DNA from: Styela clava | Lineage: Eukaryota > Chordata > Ascidiacea > Stolidobranchia > Styelidae | Reading direction: 5' to 3' | Length of the DNA stretch: 64,000 nucleotides | Assembly (NCBI RefSeq): GCF_964204865.1 | Contig: NC_135261.1 | Span: 8,618,001-8,682,000, forward strand | Part shown: positions 3,568 through 54,646 of the stretch, in pieces | Layout of the letters: every line of letters begins with the position of its first letter | How positions within the stretch are numbered: position 1 is the stretch's first letter | The notes under the pieces: model-generated | Database searches by the model: none | What the model saw: only the letters and a program-made list of their open reading frames with translations | What the model was told of the DNA's origin: nothing | Position numbers and translations under genes: made by a program

Positions 3568-4887
3568 TTACTTTGAAACAGCTGATTTGACTTTCTTGTC
3601 ATTAAAAAACAATTGTCCTTCATCAAGCAAAATTTTACTTGTAATATTTAATTCTTCCAATTGAGTTTTACTGTTTAATTTTTCCATCAAATTAAGCAAA
3701 GTTGTTTCACCATTAAGAAACTTTGCAATTCCATGGGTAGTGAAGCCAATTCTATGATCAGTCACACGATCTTGATGATAATTATAAGTCCTAATTTTAT
3801 CGGAACGCTCCCGATTTTTGACCTGCTGTTGACGAGCTTTAGTGAGAGCACTTTGTTGCATACTATGTTTTTCTGATGCTAATATAGCTTCTAGCATTTG
3901 CATAGCACGATCCTTATTATCATGTTGAGATCTTGTAGCATTACATTCAACAATCTTTCCAGTTTTAATATGTTTTAATCGAATTGCGGATTCAGTTTTA
4001 TTTGCGTGTTGACCACCTGAAGAATTAGAGCGTTTAAAACGTTGAACCTCCACATCTTTTTCATCAAGTGTTTCAGTTCGATTGCTAAAAACTGGAAGTA
4101 AAGCGACGGATGCTGTACTGGTGTGTATTCGTCCAGCTTTTTCTGTCTCTGGCACACGTTGTACCCTATGGGTACCAATCTCATTCTTAAACAATTGATA
4201 CATATTTCTATCTATAAAATTTATATTTGCTGAAGACTTCTTCAATCCTCCAATATCAGTATACTCGACATTTAAAATTTCAAAATCATGTCCAAATCTT
4301 ATACAAAAAGATTGATACATTTCGAGTAATTCTGATGCAAAAAGCATGGCTTCTTGACCCCCAACGCCCGCTGACACTTCGAGAACTGCGTTGGAAACTT
4401 GATTATCACCGTGCATTATTTCAAAAAGCTTCGACACAATTATTTCATTACATGACTCTATTTCTTTCAAAAGTTCTTCTTTTTCATCTTCTGCAATTTT
4501 AATTAAATCATCTTTTTCATCAGATTTAGCTTCAGTTAATGCTTCAGATACAAAAGATTCAACTTCTTTTAAATTATCATGAACACCGTACAGATTATCA
4601 ATATCATTGTTCAAATTTTCCAATTTATGAATCGCAACCTTAGGATTGCTCCCAAAAAACTCTAATAATGAAGGTGGCCATTTTGTCTTTGAGCTAGATT
4701 CTATATTTAAACGTCCATAAGCAAACTTGAAATAATCAAAAAGATCTTTATGGTGAATCTTCTCTCCTTTCATAATCGAAGACGTAGACAATTGAACAGC
4801 ATGTCTGATAATGCCACAACATGTAACTGATTTGTGTAATAATTGAGATTTATTGCAACAAGTCCGAGTGAGGAATGTTAGAAACAT
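3568..4887 (-). CDS. MTRF1L: Mitochondrial peptide chain release factor 1-like (mtRF1a), intronless
   Basis: Class I release factor that terminates mitochondrial translation at UAA/UAG and hydrolyses peptidyl-tRNA. The 439-residue frame is one exon. Residues 1-38 are rich in basic and hydroxyl residues with almost no acids, as in a mitochondrial presequence. A PCRF coiled region follows (about 75-200, with SAGVGGQEA near 173-181), then the codon-recognition stretch RVPETEKAGRIHTS with the PxT tripeptide at 246-248, and the catalytic GGQ at 291-293 in SGGQHANKTESAIRL. The intact PxT tripeptide argues for MTRF1L rather than MTRF1, which has an altered recognition loop. The C-terminal block SDKIRTYNYHQDRVTDHRI is canonical. 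The last 30 or so residues are a lysine-rich extension not typical of bacterial RF1. The vertebrate gene has several introns; here there are none. Confidence 0.95.
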   Translation of the reverse strand: MFLTFLTRTCCNKSQLLHKSVTCCGIIRHAVQLSTSSIMKGEKIHHKDLFDYFKFAYGRLNIESSSKTKWPPSLLEFFGSNPKVAIHKLENLNNDIDNLYGVHDNLKEVESFVSEALTEAKSDEKDDLIKIAEDEKEELLKEIESCNEIIVSKLFEIMHGDNQVSNAVLEVSAGVGGQEAMLFASELLEMYQSFCIRFGHDFEILNVEYTDIGGLKKSSANINFIDRNMYQLFKNEIGTHRVQRVPETEKAGRIHTSTASVALLPVFSNRTETLDEKDVEVQRFKRSNSSGGQHANKTESAIRLKHIKTGKIVECNATRSQHDNKDRAMQMLEAILASEKHSMQQSALTKARQQQVKNRERSDKIRTYNYHQDRVTDHRIGFTTHGIAKFLNGETTLLNLMEKLNSKTQLEELNITSKILLDEGQLFFNDKKVKSAVSK

Positions 4888-7794: not shown

Positions 7795-10358
7795 TGTAGC
7801 GTACCGGCAATGTATGAAATAATTATCCAAGTTCAGAATATCTTCTAATATGATCTGACGTCAAGTTTTCTCTCAATAGTCCAAGTCTTTATGCTATTTT
7901 ATGTCATTTATTAACAACTCGAACAGTAAACGATCCAAAACAACCAAACACTCCCCAAAGGAACGAAAAGCATAAAATAAAAATAACAGATACCAGGCAG
8001 TAAAATGCAAGAAAGACCACATACACAACAAAAACACTGACCAACCCTGAAATCCAAGACAACTCTGAATAAAAAACCAAATGACCCCTAGAATCTGGTA
8101 CAATGAACTAGCTACTGCAATTTGTAAAACAGGCCGAAAGTAACTTATGACAGGCATTTAAAAAGACTATGAACAATTCTATAGGTGCACAACATTTGAA
8201 CAATACTGATGAAAGCTAATTCCACGATAAAACTGAAAATACAACACTACGGTAAATGAACTGTAATGGCACTGTACTGGTAAAATCAATAACATGGTCC
8301 CTACGTCAGCCCACTGTCCAGCACAAAACATCCGACAGTCACACAACACAGACAAACATCCCTGAAGACCAGACGCATTCACACAGACATTCAAAACCCA
8401 CCAATCTAACCGAAACACTCAGACGACTCCACTCTGTCACACACAGCATACACCAACAGACCACGCTGCCCCCGAGAACCGATCGACCGTGTCGCAGCGT
8501 CTAAACTGCTAGAATACCAAATATGGAAACGATATCACATGACGTCATTTAACAGGCAAAACAAGGGTCGTCACATTACCCCCCTCTTCTAGATGGAACA
8601 TTATGAAAGAATGTTTTCATCTCTAAAAAAAATATTTGAAACACGAAAAGCAGTAGTCAAAACCAAATTATGTCCACAAATGTCTTTAAAATATGCAGGC
8701 CGTCTACCCTCACGCTTAAGCATCCGTAAAGTTTGTCATTCGGGATTGAGTCCACCAACGTCATCGAAACGACCAAATTGATGTTGCATATCTCCATTGG
8801 CTCAACAATGGCTACTATGTTAGATCTCCGGACGGCCAAGGCTGTTGTAGCTGAACTAGAACAACCATTCCCGAGCGGCCGGTATAACCACATCTTCACT
8901 ATAGTCCCATGACAGCAGGGAGAAGCTGTTTGGTGCTGTACCTTAACATCCTGTCCCTCAAGAACAAAACGATGCGACGAATTTGCCAAGATAGTCCATC
9001 CGTGACCCTAGATCGGCGACGGCAACGGTATGCTCCACAGGCCAGCTTTCAATCGTCAGGTTGACATCAAGTGCACCATGAGACACTAACGACTCGCCAC
9101 TGGCAGTACGCAATGGTACTGGAAAAGAATACAGTTCTGAAATGTCCGAATTTCCTGCAACGTCGAGTAAACAGCGGTGTCTATGAGCGAGACACCCGAA
9201 CCGAATTTTCCGCAACGTCAAGTAAACAGCGGTGTCTATGAGCGAGACACCCGCACGTGACCCTGGATCGGCGACCACAACTGTATGCTCCACAGACCAG
9301 CTTTCAATCGTCAGGTTGACATCAAGTACACCGTGAGACACAAATGACTCGCAACTGGCAGTACGGAGTGGCACTGGAACAGGATGCAGCCCCGAAATGT
9401 TCGAATCTTCCTGCAACGTCGAGTAAACAGCGGTGTCAATGAGCCAGACACCCGCACCGGTATCAATCAAAAACAAAACAGGCACGTTATTGACCAGAGC
9501 CTTGACATATCATCCATTAGTCCAAGTAATAGAAAAAAAAATCATAGTTCATAGAAAATATCCTGGCGTGCTCTCGCCAAAAATTGTAGCGTACCGGCAA
9601 TGTATGAAATAATTATCCAAGTTCAGAATATCTTCTAATATGATCTGACGTCAAGTTTTCTCTCAATAGTCCAAGTCTTTATGCTATTTTATGTCATTTA
9701 TTGACAACTCGAACAGTAAACGATCCAAAACAACCAAACACTCCCCAAAGGAACGAAAAGCATAAAATAAAAATAACAGATACCAGGCAGTAAAATGCAA
9801 GAAAGACCACATACACAACAAAAACACTGACCAACCCTGAAATCCAAGACAACTCTGAATAAAAAACCAAATGACCCCTAGAATCTGGTACAATGAACTA
9901 GCTACTGCAATTTGTAAAACAGGCCGAAAGTAACTTATGACAGGCATTTAAAAAGACTATGAACAATTCTATAGGTGCACAACATTTGAACAATACTGAT
10001 GAAAGCTAATTCCACGATAAAACTGAAAATACAACACTACGGTAAATGAACTGTAATGGCACTGTACTGGTAAAATCAATAACATGGTCCCTACGTCAGC
10101 CCACTGTCCAGCACAAAACATCCGACAGTCACACAACACAGACAAACATCCCTGAAGACCAGACGCATTCACACAGACATTCAAAACCCACCAATCTAAC
10201 CGAAACACTCAGACGACTCCACTCTGTCACACACAGCATACACCAACAGACCACGCTGCCCCCGAGAACCGATCGACCGTGTCGCAGCGTCTAAACTGCT
10301 AGAATACCAAAACGATATCACATGACGTCATTTAACAGGCAAAACAAGGGTCGTCACA
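7795..10358 (-). mobile_element. Non-autonomous LTR retrotransposon (Gypsy-like), minus orientation
   Basis: Two direct repeats, 7795-8575 (781 bp) and 9585-10358 (774 bp), are almost identical and differ mainly by a 7-bp indel near 8521. On the plus strand each begins TG and ends CA. A 4-bp target duplication ATGG flanks the whole (7791-7794 and 10359-10362). In the minus orientation the interior opens with ATTTTTGGCGAGAGC just after the LTR, a plausible primer-binding site, and ends in a purine tract (agaagagggggg) just before the other LTR. The interior is only about 1.0 kb, too short for gag-pol, so this is a deletion derivative. LTR near-identity implies recent insertion. Confidence 0.88.
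8958..9485 (-). pseudogene. Retroelement aspartic-protease remnant with internal duplication
   Basis: A 175-codon minus-strand frame inside the LTR element. Its start has the retropepsin active-site pattern FLIDTGAGV (D at residue 8), followed by a second LIDTAVY match near residue 80. The DNA explains this: a segment of about 195 bp (9003-9195) recurs at about 9260-9455 with scattered differences, and a third short partial copy lies between them. Only the first copy keeps the full DTG triad, and the reading frame drifts between copies. No reverse transcriptase, RNase H or integrase is present, so any mobility would depend on a related element elsewhere. Confidence 0.65.
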
Positions 10359-14746: not shown

Positions 14747-17700
14747 ATGGCTCTTCAAGTTTGGGTCGAGGATAAACTTCATGAAATCCTTGGTATGAGT
14801 GAGAAACATGTTGCCCAATACCTTATTGGACTATGTCAGAAAAGTACATCAATGGACGGGTTTGCTGACACTCTACAAAAGACTGGTGCGTTTGATGTCA
14901 CTGATAAATTTTTAAGTTTTGCAAAAGATTTATATGCAAAAGTTCCACACAAACAAGTTGCCACCAGCAATACTAATCGTTTACGAGAACAAAAAATTGT
15001 TTCAATGCATCAGAAAAATTTAAGTTATAAATTAGTGTCATCTGATGAAGATGAAACTATTCCGTCAAAATCAAGTCGTAAGACAACATCAGTTTCCTTC
15101 TCGGATAAAAAAGAAAGAAAAGGATCTATGGGTAAAAAAGTGCGAGCAATACGTAAGCGTAATCAGACATCTTCTGAAAGCGAGGATGAACAACCAACAG
15201 GAAATGATAAAGATGATAAATCTGGATCGTCATCATCAGATGAATGGGACAAGGAAGAACAACAAAGAAAACAAGACTTGGAAGAGCGAGATAAATTTGC
15301 CGAACGAATGAAAAAAAAGGATAAAGAGAAAACCAGAAAAGTCATGGATCGAAGTGATGGAAAAGCATACAAAGAAGCAAAAAAACGTCTTGAAATTGCA
15401 GATGCCAATGACTCAAAAATCCTACAAGATCTTCGTAAAAAATCAAGGCGAGAATATTTGAAGAAAAGAGAAGAAGATAAATTACAAGAATTAGAAGGTG
15501 ATATTTATGATGAGGAACATTTTTTCGCTGGTGAAGAATTAACAGAAAAGGAACGCCAAGAATTAGAATTCAAGAAGCAAGTTCGCGATATCGCGTTAAA
15601 CTACAAAGGTATTGGTGAATCACAAAAACGAGGTCGATATTACATACCAGAGGAAAAAAAGAGAGGTGATATACATGATGAATATGATGAAACTATTGGA
15701 CCATCAGGAGAATCTGGTAAATTGATTTCAGAGAATGAACGTTGGGAAGAAGCTCGTATTCATGCCGCAATAGCTCATTATGGCGCTAAAGATGCAAGAG
15801 AAAAGAAAGAAGAGAAGAAGTACGAGCTTCTCACAGAAGATGATGTGATTGAATTTGTTCAAGCTGCTACACACAAAGGCACATTGAATGAAGATCAATC
15901 ACCAGAAATGAGTGCATCTGAAAAAAAGAAAATGTCTATAAAAGAAACTAGGGAAAATCTTCCAATCTATGGATTTCGTGAAGACTTATTGGATGCTATT
16001 GATGAACACCAAGTTTTGATTATTGAGGGTGAAACTGGTAGTGGCAAAACTACTCAGATTCCTCAATATTTGTGTGAGAGTGGATATTGCAAAGGAGGAG
16101 TGAAAGTCGGTTGTACTCAACCTCGTCGAGTTGCTGCAATGTCTGTAGCAGCTAGAGTTGCATCGGAAATGAATGTGAAACTTGGGGCAGAAGTTGGTTA
16201 CTCAATTCGATTTGAAGATTGTACCAGTGAGCGTACCAAGTTAAAATATATGACTGATGGTATGCTCTTGCGTGAATTTCTCACTGAACCAGACTTGAAG
16301 GGATATAGTGTTATTATGATTGATGAAGCTCATGAACGTACTTTACATACGGATATATTATTTGGGCTTGTAAAGGATATTGCTAGGTTTCGACCTGAAT
16401 TAAAATTGCTAATTAGCAGTGCTACATTGGATGCCGAAAAATTTTCTGCATTTTTTGATGACGCACCAATCTTCAGAATACCAGGTAGACGTTACCCAGT
16501 TGATATTTATTACACAAAATCACCAGAAGCTGATTATCTTGATGCCTGTGTGGTATCTGTGTTTCAAATTCATCTGACACAGCCTCTTGGTGATATTCTT
16601 ATTTTTTTAACTGGACAAGAGGAAATTGAGACTTGTGCTGAAGTTATTCAAGAGCGTGCGAGGCAACTAGGGTCAAGGATTAAAGAACTTGTTATTTTAC
16701 CTATTTATGCAAACTTACCATCTGATATGCAAGCAAAAATATTTGAGCCAACTCCCCCAGGTGCTAGGAAAGTTGTTATTGCCACTAATATCGCAGAAAC
16801 TTCTCTTACTATTGATGGAATTGTTTATGTAATTGATCCTGGATTTTGTAAGCAAAAAAGTTTTAATGCAAGAACAGGTATGGAGTCTCTTATAGTAGTT
16901 CCATGTTCAAAACAAAATGCAAATCAAAGAGCGGGCCGAGCTGGAAGAGTTGGGCCAGGAAAATGCTTCAGATTATATACTGCATGGGCTTACAAACATG
17001 AACTTGAAGATGCAAGTGTCCCTGAGATTCAGCGAACGAACCTCGGAAATGTTGTATTGATGCTTAAAAGCTTGGGTATCAATGATTTAATTCATTTTGA
17101 TTTTATGGATCCACCCCCTCATGAAACTCTTGTTATGGCTTTAGAGCAGCTTTATGCACTTGGTGCTTTGAATCACCTCGGTGAACTAACAAAACTGGGG
17201 CGTAGAATGGCAGAATTTCCAGTTGATCCTATGTTATCAAAAACTTTGTTAGCATCTGAGAAATATAAATGTTCTGAAGAAGTGGTAACCATAGTTGCCA
17301 TGTTATCAGTTAATAACTCCATATTTTATAGACCTAAAGATAAGATAGTGCATGCTGATAACGCTCGACAAAACTTTTATATGCCTGGGGGTGACCACCT
17401 TGTTTTACTAAATGTATATAACCAATGGGTGGGAACTGGTCATTCTACTCAATGGTGCTTTGAAAATTTCATTCAACATAGGTCAATGAAAAGAGCTCGT
17501 GATGTACGAGATCAACTCGAAGGTTTGATGGAACGTGTGGAGATTGAACCAACTTCAAATCCGAATGATATTGTTGGAATACGTAAAGCGTTTACAGCAG
17601 GATTTTTCTATCATGTTGCTCGCCTGACGAAAGGTGGTTACAAAACAGCTAAACATCAGCAAAGTGTTCACATTCACCCAAATAGTAGTATGTTTGAAGA

Positions 17701-17890
17701 GCAACCCAGATGGCTTTTATATTTTGAGCTTGTGTTTACAAGTAAAGAATTTATGCGACAAGTCATTGAGATAGACAGTCAATGGTTACTTGAAGTTGCC
17801 CCACATTACTATCAAGCGAAGGAAATTGAAGATTCTAGTAAAAAGAAAATGCCGAAAAATGTTGGTAAATCCAGAGAAGAGCTAGGATGA
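14747..17890 (+). CDS. DHX16: DHX16 (PRP2) pre-mRNA-splicing DEAH-box RNA helicase, intronless
   Basis: ATP-dependent helicase that remodels the activated spliceosome before the first transesterification (yeast Prp2 orthologue). The 1047-residue frame is close to the 1041 residues of human DHX16. Residues 1-70 match the family's N-terminal fold ([20 protein letters not shown]). About 100-400 is a charged, coiled, serine-rich linker. The core then has GETGSGKT at 428-435 (motif I), DEAH at 526-529 (motif II), SAT at 558-560 (motif III) and QRAGRAGR at 727-734 (motif VI), followed by winged-helix, ratchet and OB-fold regions ending [15 protein letters not shown], as in the human protein. All catalytic motifs are intact and no stop or frameshift is seen, so this is a functional gene although it lacks the many introns of its vertebrate counterpart. 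No poly(A) tract or target duplication marks it as a recent retrocopy. Confidence 0.97.
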
Positions 17891-20800: not shown

Positions 20801-22233
20801 CTGATATATGTTTGCACAATATTTCATGCACGACGAAAATAAAAAAAATCTGAATCTGAATCTATAACTAGAAGTAAAACGATGATTTTGCCGTATGTCA
20901 TAGAGAAAGAATGATTTATTTCCGAATATATCATCAACGTACAGTAAAAAGAATAGAATGAAAAATAATCATAAAATATAATCGGAAGGGGTGGGCAAAA
21001 CTGCAAAAACGACGGCCGCTAAAATATTTCCATCGGGATAAGGCACAGGCAAACTCTATTTACAATATTAAAACACATATTTTGAGTCAGAAGAAAAAAG
21101 TTATCACCGACTGCTTATAGATGGTTAAGTTATCAAATTAATTCCAACAATGGATTACAGATTCCAAAGTAAATATAAAATGGGCATGTTTATTAAACAA
21201 AGTTAGCTGATACTTTTTCTGAAATACTCTAATTGAATTGAGAAAGGAAAGTTAAAAAAAAGGTACCGTATTTGGAAAAAATAATTTAGTCGCATTTTGA
21301 AAAAATAATATGGTCAACAGACCCTTTTAAGTAACTAAAAATTAAAGAAATATATTCCACAGCTGTTTGAATTATTGATTATTAGTTGATATTTGATGAA
21401 AGAGCAAGTTTCATGCACCGAACTTGAATTTGAGACTACACTGCGAAGTAATATCGCCTAAAACATGAACGTGCGACGTGCACCCGTGAAAAACCTATTT
21501 CTAACTGCAGCCAAAATGGTGGCACTGGATAATTAAACAAATAGTATATATATGCTATAGTTAAATAAAATTATAAATAAACTTACAGAAACCCATACAA
21601 AGGCTAGAGCGTAAATTTAAAACAAATACGTATATATATTATTTTATGATCTACGTGGTATCTCTGCTCAGAACACATAACAGGTTTATTCCCATTACTT
21701 CAAGATACCCCCTTATTTTATTTTATATCGTATTATAAAGATACATTAACAAAAAATGATCAGAAGTCGCGTGAGTCAACCACTCAGAAACACTCTTCGT
21801 TTTCAAGGTCTATTTTCGAGTGCTTTTTTTATAAGTAATCAGGTATTTTACCGAGATAGGCCTTAGACTTGTGCAAATATTGCCACAGGCATTTGCTTTT
21901 TATTGCACTTCGTTCTATTTATTCAGTTTTCAAGCATCTTGTGTCATTGCTTACAAATTGGTTATTTTTAAATTCTTCCTGCTCTGTGTCAATGTGCACG
22001 TTACAAACAACACGTGTCATTTCTTGTGACTTTTTACAGAAGTCAGACACACATTGTCTATAACAGAGTTATTTATAGTCACTGACTGCACATTACTTGA
22101 TCTTCGTAGTGTTGATAGCCATTGAAAGGTACCATTACCACTTTTTATGACGTCGCACCTGTTGGAAAACATTCAACTGAAATTGACGCATGGACACGAA
22201 TTTTGAGATACAAAAATACCGTAATACAAAATT
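20801..22233. other. Gene-free sequence
   Basis: AT-rich sequence, probably 3' flank of the ZU5 gene on the minus strand. Two short open frames do not resemble known proteins. No repeat family recognised. Confidence 0.5.
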
Positions 22234-25200
22234 TTACTTGTGAAATAAACGTAAAGTGATGTGGAAAGATGCACACGGTATTATGAAAGGAGAGAGAAGC
22301 GCGAGAAAAGAATATCTGAAATTAATTTAACTCTCCGCACAGGTTGGTTATAGATAGAAATTGTGCTAAATGCTTACGTTGACTACACGCATGGCTCATT
22401 GTGTTAGATTCATTATAACTGAATATGTCTTACCGCGGATCGTCTCCTTCGCACCAAACCTCGAAGCAGTATTCTATTCGAACTACGTCAACTTGGCTGT
22501 CGTTGATATGACGCAGGCCACATTTTTTGTTTACAATAACACCGTACGGCCAAATGTCTTTGTTCTTGATGGAAATCACTGGTGGCTCTACAGAAATATT
22601 TGAGTTTTCTGAGTTGATACAGATGTTTAGAGACTGGTCGGGCCTGTAAATATATATGTTGGGAATAAAAACGTTAGAAACTATTCGAAAAAAGATGAAA
22701 GTAATATATGAATAGACACTATCATATTTGACTACTGGGAATATGAAAGATACTGCTCCAGTTAACGGAACAGAAGAAAATAATTTAGCGATGTCATATA
22801 TTTCATAGGTAATGACTCTGAGTAGTCGTTTCGAATTCCAGAAAACATACATATGCTGAAATGGTTATTGCAGAGAAAAAGTTGAAGTCACCTAATCATA
22901 AGTGTCCCAGGTTCCACTACCATTTCATAATGTTCCGAGTTCATTCCCCTTGTGACATATGCAAACGAATGTACGTCGGAAATACACCAAACTAGTTCGT
23001 AGTTGTTAGGTTTCTGCTCTACTGTAAATCGCTTCACGTAGCCAACAAAATATAACGTTTTTGAAAACAGTTTCTCAATCGCCCGCTGGAAGATGGCTCG
23101 GAATCTTAAAAGGAAATAAAAGCTTAGTAATTCTTGATCTTTTGGGTATGTTCTCCGAACTCTTCCATTCTGTATCTCACATAAAAAGTGTCAAGTGAGA
23201 ATAGGCATTCGCCGAAAATTTCAAAACATTAAAAAGAAACTCACAACGTAAAATGATTCACACCGAACACAATTCTGCCCGGAAAACTATTTTTTACTAT
23301 CTTAAATTCTTCCCAGTTGCTTTCTTCTTCTTGTCGTGTTTGTATCTAAAATATATCAACAACCACTGATTTTTTAGTAAAATAGGATTTTATGTTATAT
23401 ATATTTATATCAAGTCTATAAGACGAATTTGCCATGCAGCCTCTATGTGTGCATCGCTACCAGCTGAAGGGGTGTGGTGGGTAGGGCTGGGCATTTCGAA
23501 TCGAATAGTGAATCGGTTCGAATTTTTTTATCGGAGCCATAGTTTTTCAATGCAATTATGACTATTTTCTGTAGTGAGTTATTGATAAAACGTGTTTCTT
23601 ACTGTATGTGAACTCTCAGCAATCTGCCTGAGTGATGTATTTTACGTTTTCAGTAATTCATATGTTGAAAGGACCAATTACAATGAAAAATCGCATACAA
23701 TTATACATCTTCCAAGTATTCGATTCGAAAAAAATATTCGATTCTGAAATCATCAGGTATTCGAAAATGCCCAGCCCTACTGGTGGGCGAAATAGATTGT
23801 GACCAAATTGACGCTAACGTAAATTGAGGAATTCCTAGGGATTCGAAATAGGAAAGGTAGATAGCCACATGGCAAGAATTATAACGCAGGAGTGCAGCGT
23901 CTCGAGTCAGCTTGGAACTCAAACCTTCAGGACTTTGGACTTGACTTGAAATTGGGTTTGGTGTTGACTCGACATGACTCGCTACTTAGTCTATAAAAAG
24001 TTGCACTCAACAACGGTAGTTTGACTACTCTCGCACTAAAAGAGCTATGGTAATCATAAACAGTTCACTGTGAACATAGCGTACCGTTATATCAGAGAGT
24101 TTGACGTGAGATAGTGGGTCAAAATATGCCGGTATTGATATCAAGACATCTTTTTTGAAGCTCAAGCCTTTTGGAAGAAGCTGGATTGTAGGGGTCATGG
24201 TCAACCAATTTTCGTCCTGAAATGGAAGTATGTAAACACACAAATGCCGGATTAAAATTCCATGATTTTGTCAAAATTAGAATTACCAGTATAGCTTAGT
24301 TAATAATCAAAGTGAGCCGATCACTGCATGAGGCAGTGCTGAGGCCGGAAATCTTCAACTATGCTATGCCGATAGCGTTTTTGAATGTCTAACCTGAGTT
24401 ATCGTCGCTGCAACTTTTCACCACTTACTTGAAAAGGTTGTCGATGGAAAAAACACTTCAGCGTAATTTCAGTTAAATGGTCCAAGGCTCCTTTGGGTAT
24501 TAACACACTGCATCCAGCAATCGCCAACGATCCGCCGTGAGAACCAATAACTTCTGATATATCATAAATATCAACATTGTTAATATCTGAGATCGTGGAT
24601 ACAACTTCTTTCTTTCCACTATTTGAAGATAAGCTGAAATTATTTAGTATATCAAATTATAGTAATATTTTTTTTATATTACCTACTATTATTTTGCATC
24701 TTATTGTAACGTATATTAATTCGAACTGCTCAATATATATATACGGAGGCCTGCACCCTTGTCTGAATTTTAGATGTGTATGCGTATAGTTTTTGCAAAC
24801 TGTTGACGAAATATTTCTGTGAAGAGAAACTCTGACTTACTCTGCGTTTGTAAACAATCAATATATATACCATACACGCCTCGCATATCAGAAAACAAGT
24901 GACAGCTATTCATTATCCACCTACAAAGAGTCTTCTTACCTTATGCCTGAATCTCCATCGCCGCACGACCGAACTTCAGAAAGTCTAAACCAAAAATACT
25001 TATATATATGGGCACGAACTGAATATGAGTATACATCTACACATAAATCTGTTTTCACTATAATAGTCAAAGCGAATCTTTACTGTACAACAAAACGTTG
25101 CTGGTAAATATTGAATGAAGCAAATGCAGCAATAAGAAATTAGCAAAAGAGATAGCTAGAGCATAGGACTTGCAGACCTTCGAGTCATATGATGTCTATT

Positions 25201-27615
25201 AAATACGATATGTCATTCTAATTTGTCTGACCCGAGTTTTTCACAAGAAAGAAATTCTTGCAATTTTGCTCCTTTACTAGTATCTAGAATCTTTTTTTTA
25301 ATTCAGAAATTAAAATTTTTCAAATCTATCATGTTCTCTTCACCATTTTTCTCAATATAAGCCCAATCGCTGATTTGCTTAGGCTCGTATTAATAACTTT
25401 GATATAGGCAAATCATACGACCATGTAACTTTAAACGCATTTTATAAATTCAATAAAATTGTTTCATACCTTCTAGTTTCATCCTGTTGTTTGTTTCCGA
25501 CTGATTTCGATCTTTCCGGAAATAAATCATTCTGGAATAAAAGAGTTTTGGCAAATTATTCCGCTTTATCTTGCTAACTACTATTTCATTCTGTGATATC
25601 AATGATTAGATAGTGAAATCTCACCTCGTTAAACCGCATTTTAACATTGACACGTTTCGGCGAAGTTGTGACATCGATATTTGCTACATTTTCATTGGAA
25701 TCTGTAAAATGTTATATTTTTCTTTCAAAATATCTCAGAATATTCTATGATAATGATTCATTAATCGTCAGTAATAGGAGTGGTCAGTGACGAACGCATT
25801 TACATCATAAAAACATGTCATGTTTTGAACTATACGAATAGGACGTTCATTGCGACGTCATATTTATTTTCGTACAATGCCGTATGACGTCATAATGATT
25901 TGTAGGACTGCTCAAAACATACTGAGCACGCACAACTTATGATTACTCGCCTTCAGTCTGTAACCATGTATTATAGTTGGATAAAGTATACGCTAACGCT
26001 TTAAATTAATATTGCCCGCCATTCTTTGAAATATACGTTTTGTCAGGTATACCAGGGAACGTTTGAGGTACAGTGTTTACCCGAAAATAAGACTGGGGTT
26101 TATTTCAATTTTCTTTCGAAAAATAACACTAGGGCTTATTTTCGGGGAATGTCTTATATTTTCATTTATCAAAAACAAAATTACAAAGTGGAGAATTACA
26201 AAATTTTCAAATATACAAAATATGAAAACCGATATTCATTTACTTATAAATAACATGTTTTTATTCAAAATAACTGCAAAACATAGATTATTAATCATTT
26301 TAAACGTGTAGAAGAGATTTCCTACTATCGACTAGTTAGAAAAAAAATTTCGCGTTACTGACTATGTCTTATTTTAAGTGGAGGGCTTATATTAAAATGA
26401 GTTTTAAAATTCAGGATAGATCTTATTTTCGGGGAAACACGGTAGTAGGACAGTAGGTAGTTCAATTATGGATGACTTTTAAGATTAAACTGCTTCGATC
26501 GAATTCAGTTGATCGAATATCCACTTAAAGTACCGGTAAATCATTTTCTCCAGTGACACTTAGCTTTGTAAGATAGTTACATGCTGTCAAGACTAATTAA
26601 TGCAATTTATTTGAATGGACTATTTCAAATTTTCTTATTTTATAAGTACATATAGGCTGTATATAAACACGCTTACAATTTACCAAACTGTAAATAATCA
26701 CTTCGCTTCTGTAATTGGAGCGGAGTGGAAATCTTCTCCTCCACATCACGGTAATAATATGCGCAGTTACGCAACTACTTACCTTTTACAGGGTGTCGAG
26801 ATATATCATCTTCTTCACCTTGAGCGGGGTATACCTTCACGGTGACATTGCTTTTCATTTCGTCATTATTTTCGTTAACCTGTATTAAATTAACCAGATA
26901 TGGAGTTCAAGAACATCCTCATATGAAACTTAAATCTTTTACAAGTTGGCGGAGAAAATAAAATATAAACCTGCGTTTCATCGGATTTGGGCTGACGGTG
27001 ATCTTCGCCATTTCTTGCTTTATCGTTTTTTTTTCTCCAGATTTTTCGACAAAAATCAATCCTATATAATATATATATATTTATTAAATTATGATAATTT
27101 TGGCCTTTTCAACAGTCATTTTAACAATCTTTATTAAAGTAATCTAACGAGTACAAACCAACTTTCATCGTATCATGTTCTCTTCAAATACATACTTTAT
27201 CTAAATAATGTGCATTTTAGTATATAACCATGATACAAAACATGGATTAATTTTGGCATTTGGAGGAATAAATAATTCAATTTGTTTCGTGGCTACTGTC
27301 GGAATCGAAAAAAAGTTCTACTAATGTTCAAACTACCATGCATGCGATGCTACCTACATTCGTTAAAATATCACATATCAGGTCATTACTCTGACTACTA
27401 CCTAATCAGCCCCCAACATAGTGGATTGGAAAGGTTCTACATTTATCCATACGGCATATTGTTTCTATATTTATGTCATACAGTCTATATCTTGCTGTAT
27501 ATCTTGTTTATAATGTTCAAAGTTATTGAAGTCTTCATTTAGTTTATACTTACAAGTATATTACAAGAAAGGCGACAAGGATCTTCAATAGGAATAAAAA
27601 CTCATTTGAATCCAT
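22234..27615 (-). CDS. Membrane-anchored ZU5-UPA-like protein, 12 exons
   Basis: No gene name recognised. Twelve minus-strand exons join in phase: 27615-27554, 27061-26971, 26879-26783, 25701-25625, 25531-25470, 24984-24940, 24633-24429, 24216-24085, 23345-23245, 23104-22892, 22643-22434 and 22315-22234, giving 458 residues. Residues 1-21 form a hydrophobic segment (FLFLLKILVAFLVIYL) followed by a basic stretch (CRKIWRKKNDK), suggesting a type III anchor with a cytoplasmic body. About 32-135 is low-complexity and charged. Exons 7-9 read as a ZU5 domain: GSHGGSLAIAGCSVLIPKGA, then TPTIQLLPKGLSFKKDVLISIP and VFGVNHFTL. Exons 10-11 resemble the UPA domain that follows ZU5 in UNC5, PIDD and ankyrins. 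No death domain is seen. The last exon (27 residues) is the least certain. Confidence 0.75.
23482..23779. mobile_element. 'AGGGCTGGGCA' MITE, copy 2
   Basis: The ends are TAGGGCTGGGCATTTCGAAT and the inverse CGAAAATGCCCAGCCCTA, flanked by tggtggg on both sides (23475-23481 and just after the right end). The interior matches the copy at 20416 in the same orientation. It sits in an intron of the ZU5 gene, between exons 8 and 9. Confidence 0.85.
26071..26442. mobile_element. 'CCCGAAAATAAGAC' MITE
   Basis: The left end is cagtgtttacccgaaaataa and the right end is the inverse ttattttcggggaaacacgg. This CGAAAATAAGAC terminus with a hAT-like CAGTG start recurs in non-autonomous elements of many animal genomes. 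No coding capacity. It lies in intron 3 of the ZU5 gene. Confidence 0.8.
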
Positions 27616-28165
27616 TCGCCGAAGTCTGCCTGTGAAATTTTTGCTTGCTTATTCCTTTCTGTATATTATAGTGGCCACAAAATTGTATATTAAGTCACCA
27701 ACCGTTCAGACTACTGTTACCTTTTATATGTACATTAATTTGTATTCGTGGGTACCTTTCTGATTCACCGTGCCACGTAAATCAGCTGCACGAGTAACGG
27801 TGATTCAAATACAGTATTTCAGACATTTGAACCCACGCATCGATCACATATTGCTTTGGCCACGCATGTACCGCCGACGGTTAAATAACTATATGAGTTA
27901 TATCGTAAGTAGTATATCCAATGCCTAGAACAATATCATCGATACCGATAACTCATAATTGTGGGTGTCATTCGAGGAAGTAAACTAGTAACCTATTGCT
28001 TCAAGAAACTGTATGCAAAACTGTATCTAGTTATTGCTTTATATATACACGTGATGAGTCTGATGGCATGCAAGTTGGTTAACAGCTCCACAGTATCTCT
28101 GTTATTATAACTAATAATTTAATATCTCTTAATCTACTTTTGAACCACCCTGTAAATATAGTTTG
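27616..28165. other. Gene-free sequence upstream of the ZU5 gene
   Basis: 5' flank of the minus-strand ZU5 gene. No promoter motif stands out and no repeat family is recognised. Confidence 0.5.
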
Positions 28166-28273
28166 GCGCTCCAGAAGTATGTGCGCCAAGATGGCGCACA
28201 ACCAGATGACCCTAACCTGGTACACATACTATGTTCAGGTTGTGCGTCATCTTGGTGCACATACTTCGGGAGC
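28166..28273. mobile_element. Palindromic MITE, about 108 bp
   Basis: The element is almost entirely one inverted repeat. 'ggcgctccagaagtatgtgc' followed by 'gccaagatggcgcacaacc' pairs with 'ggttgtgcgtcatcttggtg' followed by 'cacatacttcgggagc'. The spacer contains 'gaccctaacctggtacacat', the same block as in the copy at 59595. Transcribed, it would fold into a long hairpin. Confidence 0.88.
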
Positions 28274-44847: not shown

Positions 44848-45922
44848 CTAAAATTGAACCAATATAGATTGCACAATATCATTAAGAATATCATTACGGT
44901 TATGCTTTGTAACCTCAAATATTTTCACACGCTTGTCTTCCCTAATGCTTTCCACAAAAGGAATTCCTCTTCCTCTTTTGACTGGAATTGTTCCCAAAAC
45001 AATAAACTCATTATCAGAATCTTGTAGTATTTTACGAGTTTTACGCTTGAATCTTTCACTGAATAGTTCCATTTTACCAACTTCATCAATGATATATAGA
45101 TGTTTTGAATCACTAGTCTCTTCCAACAATGGTAAAACACAATCCTCAAAAGAAGCAACATCAACCGTATACTTCCCAACCATCGGTCCTTTTTTTGAAA
45201 CTGAACATCTTGCAAGAGGAGCTTGCTTTCCACATAAAGTCACAATGTCAAATCCAATTCTAAAAAACCACACATTGGTTAGCACGGAGATGCTAAAAAC
45301 ATAGATCGCATGTAGTTTCATTGAAATATGTCTGTTTATCTATGTTTTAAGATTATTCTGTAAATATTTTGCTCGGCCCAGCTTGAGGTTAGTTGATTGA
45401 AAGCACACTTTGATGGTTTGTTATAACCTATTATCATATACTGTTTACTTGAACTAATACCTATTAAACATGCAGAATTTGGAAGACATTGTATAGCTCA
45501 GTACAAAAGGTAGATCCAATTTTTAAATAATAAAAGTCTTTTATATTTGAGTATGAAACTGCATTTATGAATATAATCAATTTCGACTTGATTTATAGAC
45601 TGGCAAAATGAAATTAAATGAGTAAAATAGGCCTATATCAGTATATACAAATTAAGTCCAATCTACTGATCTAGGCTATACCGGTATCGGCATGTCATCT
45701 GTAAACAAATAAAATATGAAGATGGTTATCTTGAAAATAATGTAAATGGATAACACATAGTTTCGCACACCTTTCATTTCCATTTCTCCTCTCTTTCGTA
45801 TAGAAACCAGAAATTGAAATCACGCTTTCCTTTATATTGGCAATTGCTTTCTCTATTAATGTTGTCTTCCCCACTCCAGGTAATCCGGTAAGAAATATAT
45901 GGCATCTACCTGATGACTGCAT
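44848..45922 (-). CDS. NTPCR: NTPCR, cancer-related nucleoside-triphosphatase
   Basis: Small P-loop NTPase of the THEP1 family that hydrolyses nucleoside triphosphates. Two exons: 45922-45771 (50 codons plus 2 bases) and 45259-44848, total 187 residues against 190 in human. The Walker A GLPGVGKT is at residues 13-20, followed by SGFYTKERRNG. The second exon opens IGFDIVTLCG, as in the human IGFDVVTLSG. The Walker B region reads IIDEVGKMELFSERF, then FIVLGTIPVKRGRG and VTKHNRND, all canonical. The start is set by the methionine eight residues before the IFLTG strand. The gene is head to head with the THAP exon, start codons about 300 bp apart. Confidence 0.95.
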
Positions 45923-53473: not shown

Positions 53474-54646
53474 ATGGCAAGAAAAACTTGGATTATACCA
53501 TGTCTATGCATTTTTATTATGTTACACAATCTATGCTTGACCAAAGATTCTGAAGATTGGTCAAAATATCTTGATTCCATCAAGAATGCAATGGAAAATT
53601 ATAAACCATGTGAAGGCAACTGCACCTGCCATTCAAATGTTATAGATAATGATTTGAAAATATGGCAAAACAGGGGTGGAATTAAAGAAGAGGATTTTGA
53701 ACGAGCTAAGAAGTATGGAGTTCATTATCAAATCATTGATAATATTCTTTATCGAGAAGAAAAATGCATGTTTCCATCAAGATGTTCTGGAATTGAACAT
53801 TTTATAACACAACTTCTTGACGATCTTCCTGATATGGAGATGATTATTAATGTAAGAGATTGGCCTCAAACAAACAAACGAGACCTTGATCCTCGACCTG
53901 TGTTTTCATTTAGTAAAGTTGTTTCACAGCATATTGACATCATGTATCCAGCATGGACCTTTTGGGAGGGCGGTCCAGCTGTTTGGCCAATATATCCGAC
54001 AGGGCTAGGTCGCTGGGATGAAATGATGAAGTCTTTAAAAGCAAAGTCAAATGAATGGCCTTGGAATCGCAAAGAAAATAAGGGATATTTTCGTGGGTCT
54101 AGAACCTCAGCGATGAGGGATCCATTGATTTTACTGTCTCGATCAAAGCCAGATTTAGTGGATGCTCAATATACAAAAAATCAAGCTTGGAAATCTGATA
54201 AAGATACATTGGGAGCAGAACCTGCGGAGCCAGTCCATCTACTCGAACATTGTAAATATAAATATCTTTTCAATTTTCGAGGTGTTGCTGCGAGTTTCCG
54301 ATTAAAGCATTTATTCTTGTGTGATTCCCTTGTATACCATGTGGGAAGTGATTGGATTGAATTTTTTTATCCAGCTTTGAAACCATGGGTTCATTATATT
54401 CCTGTCCAAGACAATTTGAATGCTGTAGAACAATTACTAAAATTTGCCAAAGAAAATGATCAAGTTGTTAAAAATATTGCTACAAGAGGACGTGAATTTA
54501 TTGAACAATACTTAACAATGTCGGAAGTGAAGTGTTACTGGAAGCAGCTTCTGAAAAAATATGGCAAACTTCTACAATATCGCGTTAAACGTGATAAAGG
54601 ATGCATGAGATTATCTCATCCAAAAAATCAGCATTCAGAATTTTGA
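53474..54646 (+). CDS. POGLUT1: Protein O-glucosyltransferase 1 (Rumi), intronless
   Basis: ER-lumenal enzyme that transfers glucose (and xylose) from UDP-sugar to a serine in EGF repeats of Notch and other proteins. The 390-residue frame matches human POGLUT1 (392) throughout. Residues 1-22 are a signal peptide ([18 protein letters not shown]). The paired cysteines at 46, 50, 52, 98 and 104 are kept. NVRDWPQ at 126-132 holds the catalytic aspartate (129). [20 protein letters not shown] and YFRGSRTS are the family signatures, followed by [12 protein letters not shown] and [20 protein letters not shown]. The C-terminus is HSEF, a KDEL-type retrieval variant (KTEL in human). One exon here against about eleven in vertebrates, with no frame damage. 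Confidence 0.97.

Follow-up and report, generated by a model that had tools for sequence, protein, structure and literature searches.

The NLRP1 and CARD8 inflammasomes are set off when their paired ZU5 and UPA domains cleave themselves, and the known examples of self-cleaving ZU5-UPA proteins are few and use Ser. UNC5CL (ZUD) has an N-terminal membrane anchor, a ZU5 domain, no Ig/TSP ectodomain and a C-terminal death domain. Here, we describe a minus-strand gene (22017..27615) in a 64,000-nt stretch of the genome of the ascidian Styela clava (NC_135261.1, positions 8,618,001 to 8,682,000, referred to as the window). A preliminary description had proposed a membrane-anchored ZU5-UPA protein without ectodomain or death domain, and took this layout to be a new branch. 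The latter is half right: anchor plus ZU5 without ectodomain already occurs in UNC5CL, which, however, keeps a death domain, and none was found in the window gene. The main novelty appears instead to lie in a family within the same genome, whose members carry no death domain behind the ZU5-UPA module and share a conserved F-[STC] site. We consider it moderately likely that the window gene encodes a membrane-anchored, self-cleaving ZU5-UPA switch or decoy of ~478 residues, free of a death domain and acting with members of this family.

Self-cleavage has been placed between Phe296 and Ser297 in CARD8, at Ser1213 in NLRP1 and at HF/S in PIDD, by attack of a Ser, Thr or Cys, and UNC5B Leu677 is set opposite CARD8 Phe296 (PMC3210808). 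The window protein reads N-H-F-T-L-F at the end of its ZU5 domain, presenting His288-Phe289-Thr290 (23247..23255, minus strand) as a candidate autoproteolytic HF/T site, in a MAFFT column shared with the HFS, HFC and GFS of its relatives. It has the HF-nucleophile motif of PIDD, from which it differs in that neither an LRR nor a second ZU5 nor a death domain was seen. Compared with the FIIND (ZU5-UPA-CARD) of CARD8 and NLRP1, it lacks a CARD, has Thr for Ser, is membrane anchored and matches no FIIND model in Pfam. The netrin receptors UNC5A-D resemble it in having a transmembrane segment, a linker and ZU5, whereas the window holds no credible TSP motif, no death domain was found, and UNC5B reads QLG at the site. 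The HF[ST] motif is by itself only moderately telling, because it arose in 291 of 20,000 shuffles of the 45-residue stretch around the site.

The site was also compared across the genome (376.6 Mb in 379 contigs). A profile built from 21 relatives, with the window protein left out, gave 84 hits, equivalent to 70 distinct stretches that include those 21 and many recent copies; 65 of them cover the site. In 60 of these 65, the window gene included, a Phe precedes Ser, Thr or Cys, and the site is lost in the other five (second position: S 38, C 17, T 6, M 2, N 1, E 1). On the best tree of 33 stretches, all F-[STC] and with near copies left out, eight changes among Ser, Cys and Thr are needed, where the minimum possible is two, and one Ser/Thr sister pair (L045 and L034) has support of 100/100. 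No other observation speaks as strongly for self-cleavage in the family as this retention of a nucleophile while its identity changes. In the window protein, self-cleavage between Phe289 and Thr290 is the most likely prediction.

The ZU5 assignment of the preliminary description was borne out by a Pfam PF00791 match (residues 171-242, 26.8 bits, E 6.6e-6, cut-off 21) that spans the junction of exons 7 and 8. The own-genome profile scores about 67 bits (66.8-67.4) against the window protein, aligning residues 174-373; the score is carried mainly by ZU5, the match being strong as far as the exon 9 site and weak past it. The likeliest alternative, though one that we regard as unlikely, is that the gene is an orthologue of UNC5CL, a signal-anchored ZU5-UPA protein, whose death domain has disappeared and whose product now serves as a dominant-negative brake on the pathway. 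The anchor-ZU5 order without ectodomain would be shared with UNC5CL, and the ZU5 is clearly UNC5B-like (local score 106, with none of 1000 shuffles as good), but two own-genome relatives score higher (L006, 139; L005, 128) and a third equals it (L004, 105). Moreover, in a ZU5 tree of the window protein, 24 relatives, UNC5B, UNC5C (provisional sequence) and ZO-1, the last three part from the others at 100/99, albeit with long branches. On these sequence comparisons, the window gene is a divergent member of the own-genome ZU5-UPA family. The ZU5 of NLRP1 gave no significant alignment to that of the window protein, a sequence search of solved structures with the window protein returned nothing relevant, and searches of NCBIfam, PADLOC and viral contigs with the window gene gave no matches.

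A search of its own genome with the window protein yielded 38 matches (E<=10). Twelve of these are its own exons; the other 26, several of them weak, all fall within residues 149-335. With the relative L030 as query, 55 matches were obtained at E<=0.001 among 110 scored candidates (itself included; three with an internal stop). The window gene is absent from these, consistent with its divergence. Twenty of the matches cluster on C2 (1.6-8.0 Mb) and eight on C6 (20.7-22.4 Mb), regions dense in ZU5-UPA open frames of mostly ~270 aa, and 36 further loci were added to the family set. Among 64 stretches of >240 aa (single open frames, overlapping loci counted twice), at most 56 residues follow the module in the same frame, and more than 60 precede it in 12. 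Several larger architectures were observed. L048 (2132-6043, minus strand, C19) is a 1304-aa frame with a partial Death match at its start (24.6 bits), NACHT (51.4 bits) and ZU5 (14.6 bits, below the cut-off), an NLRP1-like layout without a CARD in the frame, in which the C-terminal ZU5-UPA-like module reads DRFC at the site. L010 (5915-9688, minus strand, C3) joins BTB, BACK, Kelch and ZU5 in 1258 aa; its very similar neighbor L011 (5916-9656, minus strand, C3) also encodes a BTB-BACK-Kelch-ZU5 protein, and both have the site SHFC. Further copies lie at 21.46 and 21.51 Mb of C3, and one at 21.38 Mb has a stop inside the match. At L008 (6916-7983, minus strand) and L039 (30-935, plus strand), a degenerate second ZU5-UPA-like frame that has lost the motif (AYHMYF) sits beside a site-bearing one, recalling tandem ZU5 proteins.

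Related combinations are described elsewhere among invertebrates: sponges and cnidarians have proteins that combine NACHT and ZU5 (PMC12909245, PMC8260672), one ZU5 group has undergone a lineage expansion in sponges (PMC3482391), and FIIND and UPA-ZU5 occur fused to TRADD-N (PMC8195603). The window gene differs from these in being anchored and in having neither NACHT nor TRADD-N, while its relative L048 has a Death-NACHT arrangement. No paper on a tunicate ZU5 family was found among the matches listed in our literature searches, with most subscription papers beyond reach.

For the UPA domain claimed in the preliminary description, the outcome divides between the family and the window protein. 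Predicted structures of two relatives, L006 and L030, show the ZU5-UPA fold, and the second of these models strengthens the case for UPA in the own-genome family. In a profile test anchored on ZU5, seven relatives gave scores that none of 100 shuffles reached; this test is also the sole positive sequence result for UPA in the window protein, for which the evidence is weak and no Pfam PF17217 match was obtained. The Pfam UPA model is an unfair test of distant members, because at E<=0.1 the UPA of NLRP1 was matched by the separate model UPA-FIIND and missed by PF17217; a control UNC5C fragment (provisional sequence) gave UPA, ZU5 and Death at 248, 117 and 67 bits. By profile, the family UPA matched neither NLRP1 nor UNC5B. 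We infer that the window protein probably adopts the UPA fold. The sole Pfam UPA match listed in the genome (L052; C8:23946013-23946243) is sub-threshold at 22.6 bits, contains internal stops, and may be an exon of an UNC5 or ankyrin gene.

The hydrophobic N-terminus reported earlier was recovered as residues 6-24, with a Kyte-Doolittle mean of 2.58 over a 19-residue window. It is preceded by the acidic MDSNE and followed by the basic RKIWRKK in exon 2, which by the positive-inside rule would place the ZU5 side in the cytoplasm, suggesting a single-pass membrane protein. The protein would thus consist of a short outside N-terminus, one anchor, a ~140-residue polar linker, a cytoplasmic ZU5, a probable UPA, and an end without a death domain. 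The module would cut itself between Phe289 and Thr290 by an acyl shift, with the two halves staying together as they do in CARD8, NLRP1 and PIDD. Held at the membrane, the ZU5 half would keep the UPA half in check until the ZU5 half itself is loosened or taken away. Once free, the UPA half, lacking an effector domain, could then contact other family members through UPA-UPA or ZU5-UPA interactions, including the NACHT-containing one, so that the window protein would serve as a tethered regulator or decoy.

More tentatively, and at a level that we would call possible rather than probable, the module, otherwise familiar from a handful of inflammasome and death-signalling proteins, may have given rise to a clip-and-release immune network. 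This network would comprise no fewer than 55 matching loci, most of them free-standing as judged by single frames, with repeated switching among Ser, Cys and Thr and with NACHT- and Kelch-linked sensors; the window gene would be its tethered member, releasing or capturing UPA fragments while having neither a death nor a CARD effector. A single-genome family in which the site persists while Ser, Cys and Thr are exchanged would amount to a natural mutagenesis series for the cleavage chemistry. It would also demonstrate that the module can function where CARD and death domains are absent, and would make testable the long-standing question of how a released UPA acts alone.

Several observations count against the self-cleaving switch or decoy. 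The well-supported branches of the nucleophile tree alone force fewer changes (S 4, C 2, T 3), and many rows are recent copies. In rat NLRP1, H942 has been shown to be catalytic (PMC8081665); by eye, no clear counterpart of NLRP1 H942/H1186 precedes the site in the window protein, and only the His before the Phe is present. The window protein also has a very long branch, with a top identity in the ZU5 alignment of 25%, to ZO-1. Its C-terminal half, which has no PF17217 match, ranked 260 of 503 when searched alone with a UPA profile made only from relatives (hhalign P 0.08); the true UPAs of UNC5B and NLRP1 likewise failed this test (ranks 271 and 459). With the anchored profile, the C-terminus adds only 1.3 bits to the score of ZU5, and 16 of 500 shuffles were as good. 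Pairwise comparison of the UPA region with UNC5B and NLRP1 was non-significant, and with three relatives no better than shuffles.

The long branch and the weak C-terminal match, together with a poor donor at exon 2, could also be read as signs of a decaying gene or of a non-cleaving ZU5 scaffold in which the ZU5 half persists, with the site a remnant and the remaining sequence altered by drift. We hold this to be improbable: the spliced frame of 478 codons contains no internal stop, compared with 37 and 33 in the other two frames, and the site is intact although five of the 65 family stretches have lost theirs.

The gene itself is credible because homology crosses its exon junctions, and not because of the length of the chain. 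A rule joining open exons between consensus splice sites yields 1260 nt for this region, but 4 of 21 control stretches of the window, which partly overlap one another and in some cases contain other genes, reach or exceed that length. The twelve minus-strand exons of the preliminary description, joined in one frame by eleven GT-AG introns into 458 residues, were rebuilt exactly from the window. Exon 1 (27554..27615) supplies the ATG and most of the putative signal-anchor, which continues into exon 2 (26971..27061) with the basic flank, the start of the polar linker and the weak donor GTTTAT. The linker occupies exons 3 (26783..26879), 4 (25625..25701), 5 (25470..25531) and 6 (24940..24984) and ends in exon 7 (24429..24633; residues 145-213), which also encodes the first half of ZU5. 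Exon 8 (24085..24216; residues 214-257) covers mid ZU5, both it and exon 7 being aligned by Pfam and by own-genome relatives, and exon 9 (23245..23345; residues 258-290) brings the final ZU5 strands and the candidate cleavage site. The UPA-like region would begin in exon 10 (22892..23104; residues 291-361), tentatively so from the anchored profile test, and go on in exon 11 (22434..22643; residues 362-431), mostly by position. By sequence homology, junctions 7/8 and 8/9 are well supported and junction 9/10, directly behind the last strongly matching residues, weakly supported, whereas the remaining junctions follow splice consensus alone. Codon-usage scoring was uninformative in this AT-rich gene.

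The last exon was drawn differently. The earlier choice, 22234..22315 on the minus strand, reproduces the 458 residues, but we modestly prefer 22017..22158, which gives the C-terminus and stop of a 478-aa protein with two AATAAA poly(A) signals (21899..21923, minus strand) 93 and 112 nt beyond the stop; the preference is modest because both exons could use the same signal. The ZU5 findings are unaffected by this choice (own-genome profile 67.2 bits for the 478-aa version and 67.4 for the earlier one). That no death domain follows was upheld, with no Death match in the window protein or in the 52 of 58 downstream minus-strand open frames (>=25 aa) examined; at E<=1, none of the UPA, Death, Ig and TSP models of Pfam matched the protein.

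The claimed lack of an ectodomain stands in part. None was seen by Pfam in the 24 nearest of 77 upstream frames (>=40 aa) or in a whole-window scan for TSP motifs, which gave one plus-strand WxxWxxC and one minus-strand CSxxCxxG with an internal stop; Ig was not searched by motif. The opposing sign is a possible 3' splice site, TTTCACAG (27630..27637, minus strand). Because it ends 14 nt before the ATG, an unseen upstream exon or a trans-spliced leader is conceivable; in unspliced DNA, an in-frame TAA lies 36 nt 5' of the ATG. Missed upstream exons, perhaps for an ectodomain, would make the product a receptor or other longer protein with the anchor as an internal transmembrane exon. Such a protein would explain this acceptor and the open frame running from it into the ATG, but is the least probable of the alternatives, given that minus-strand WxxWxxC occurs nowhere in the window, that those 24 frames lack Pfam matches, and that a 5' untranslated exon or trans-spliced leader explains the acceptor equally well.

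Within the window, no significant paralogues of the gene were detected, Rfam and tRNA scans found nothing, and the neighbors matched by Pfam are all ordinary. A DEAH helicase (14747-17887, plus strand), a glycosyltransferase 90 (53474-54643, plus strand) and a peptide-chain release factor (3571-4887, minus strand) are each encoded in one long open frame, in contrast to the intervening gene with its 12 exons. Also present are an NTPase (44851-45339) and a Nop52 exon (1104-1598). A fragment at 8961-9509 (minus strand) with aspartyl protease and gag-asp protease matches is probably a transposable-element relic, and an inverted repeat around GTGCGCCATCTTGGCGCACATAC at about 28170-28264, noted by eye, resembles the end of a small mobile element.

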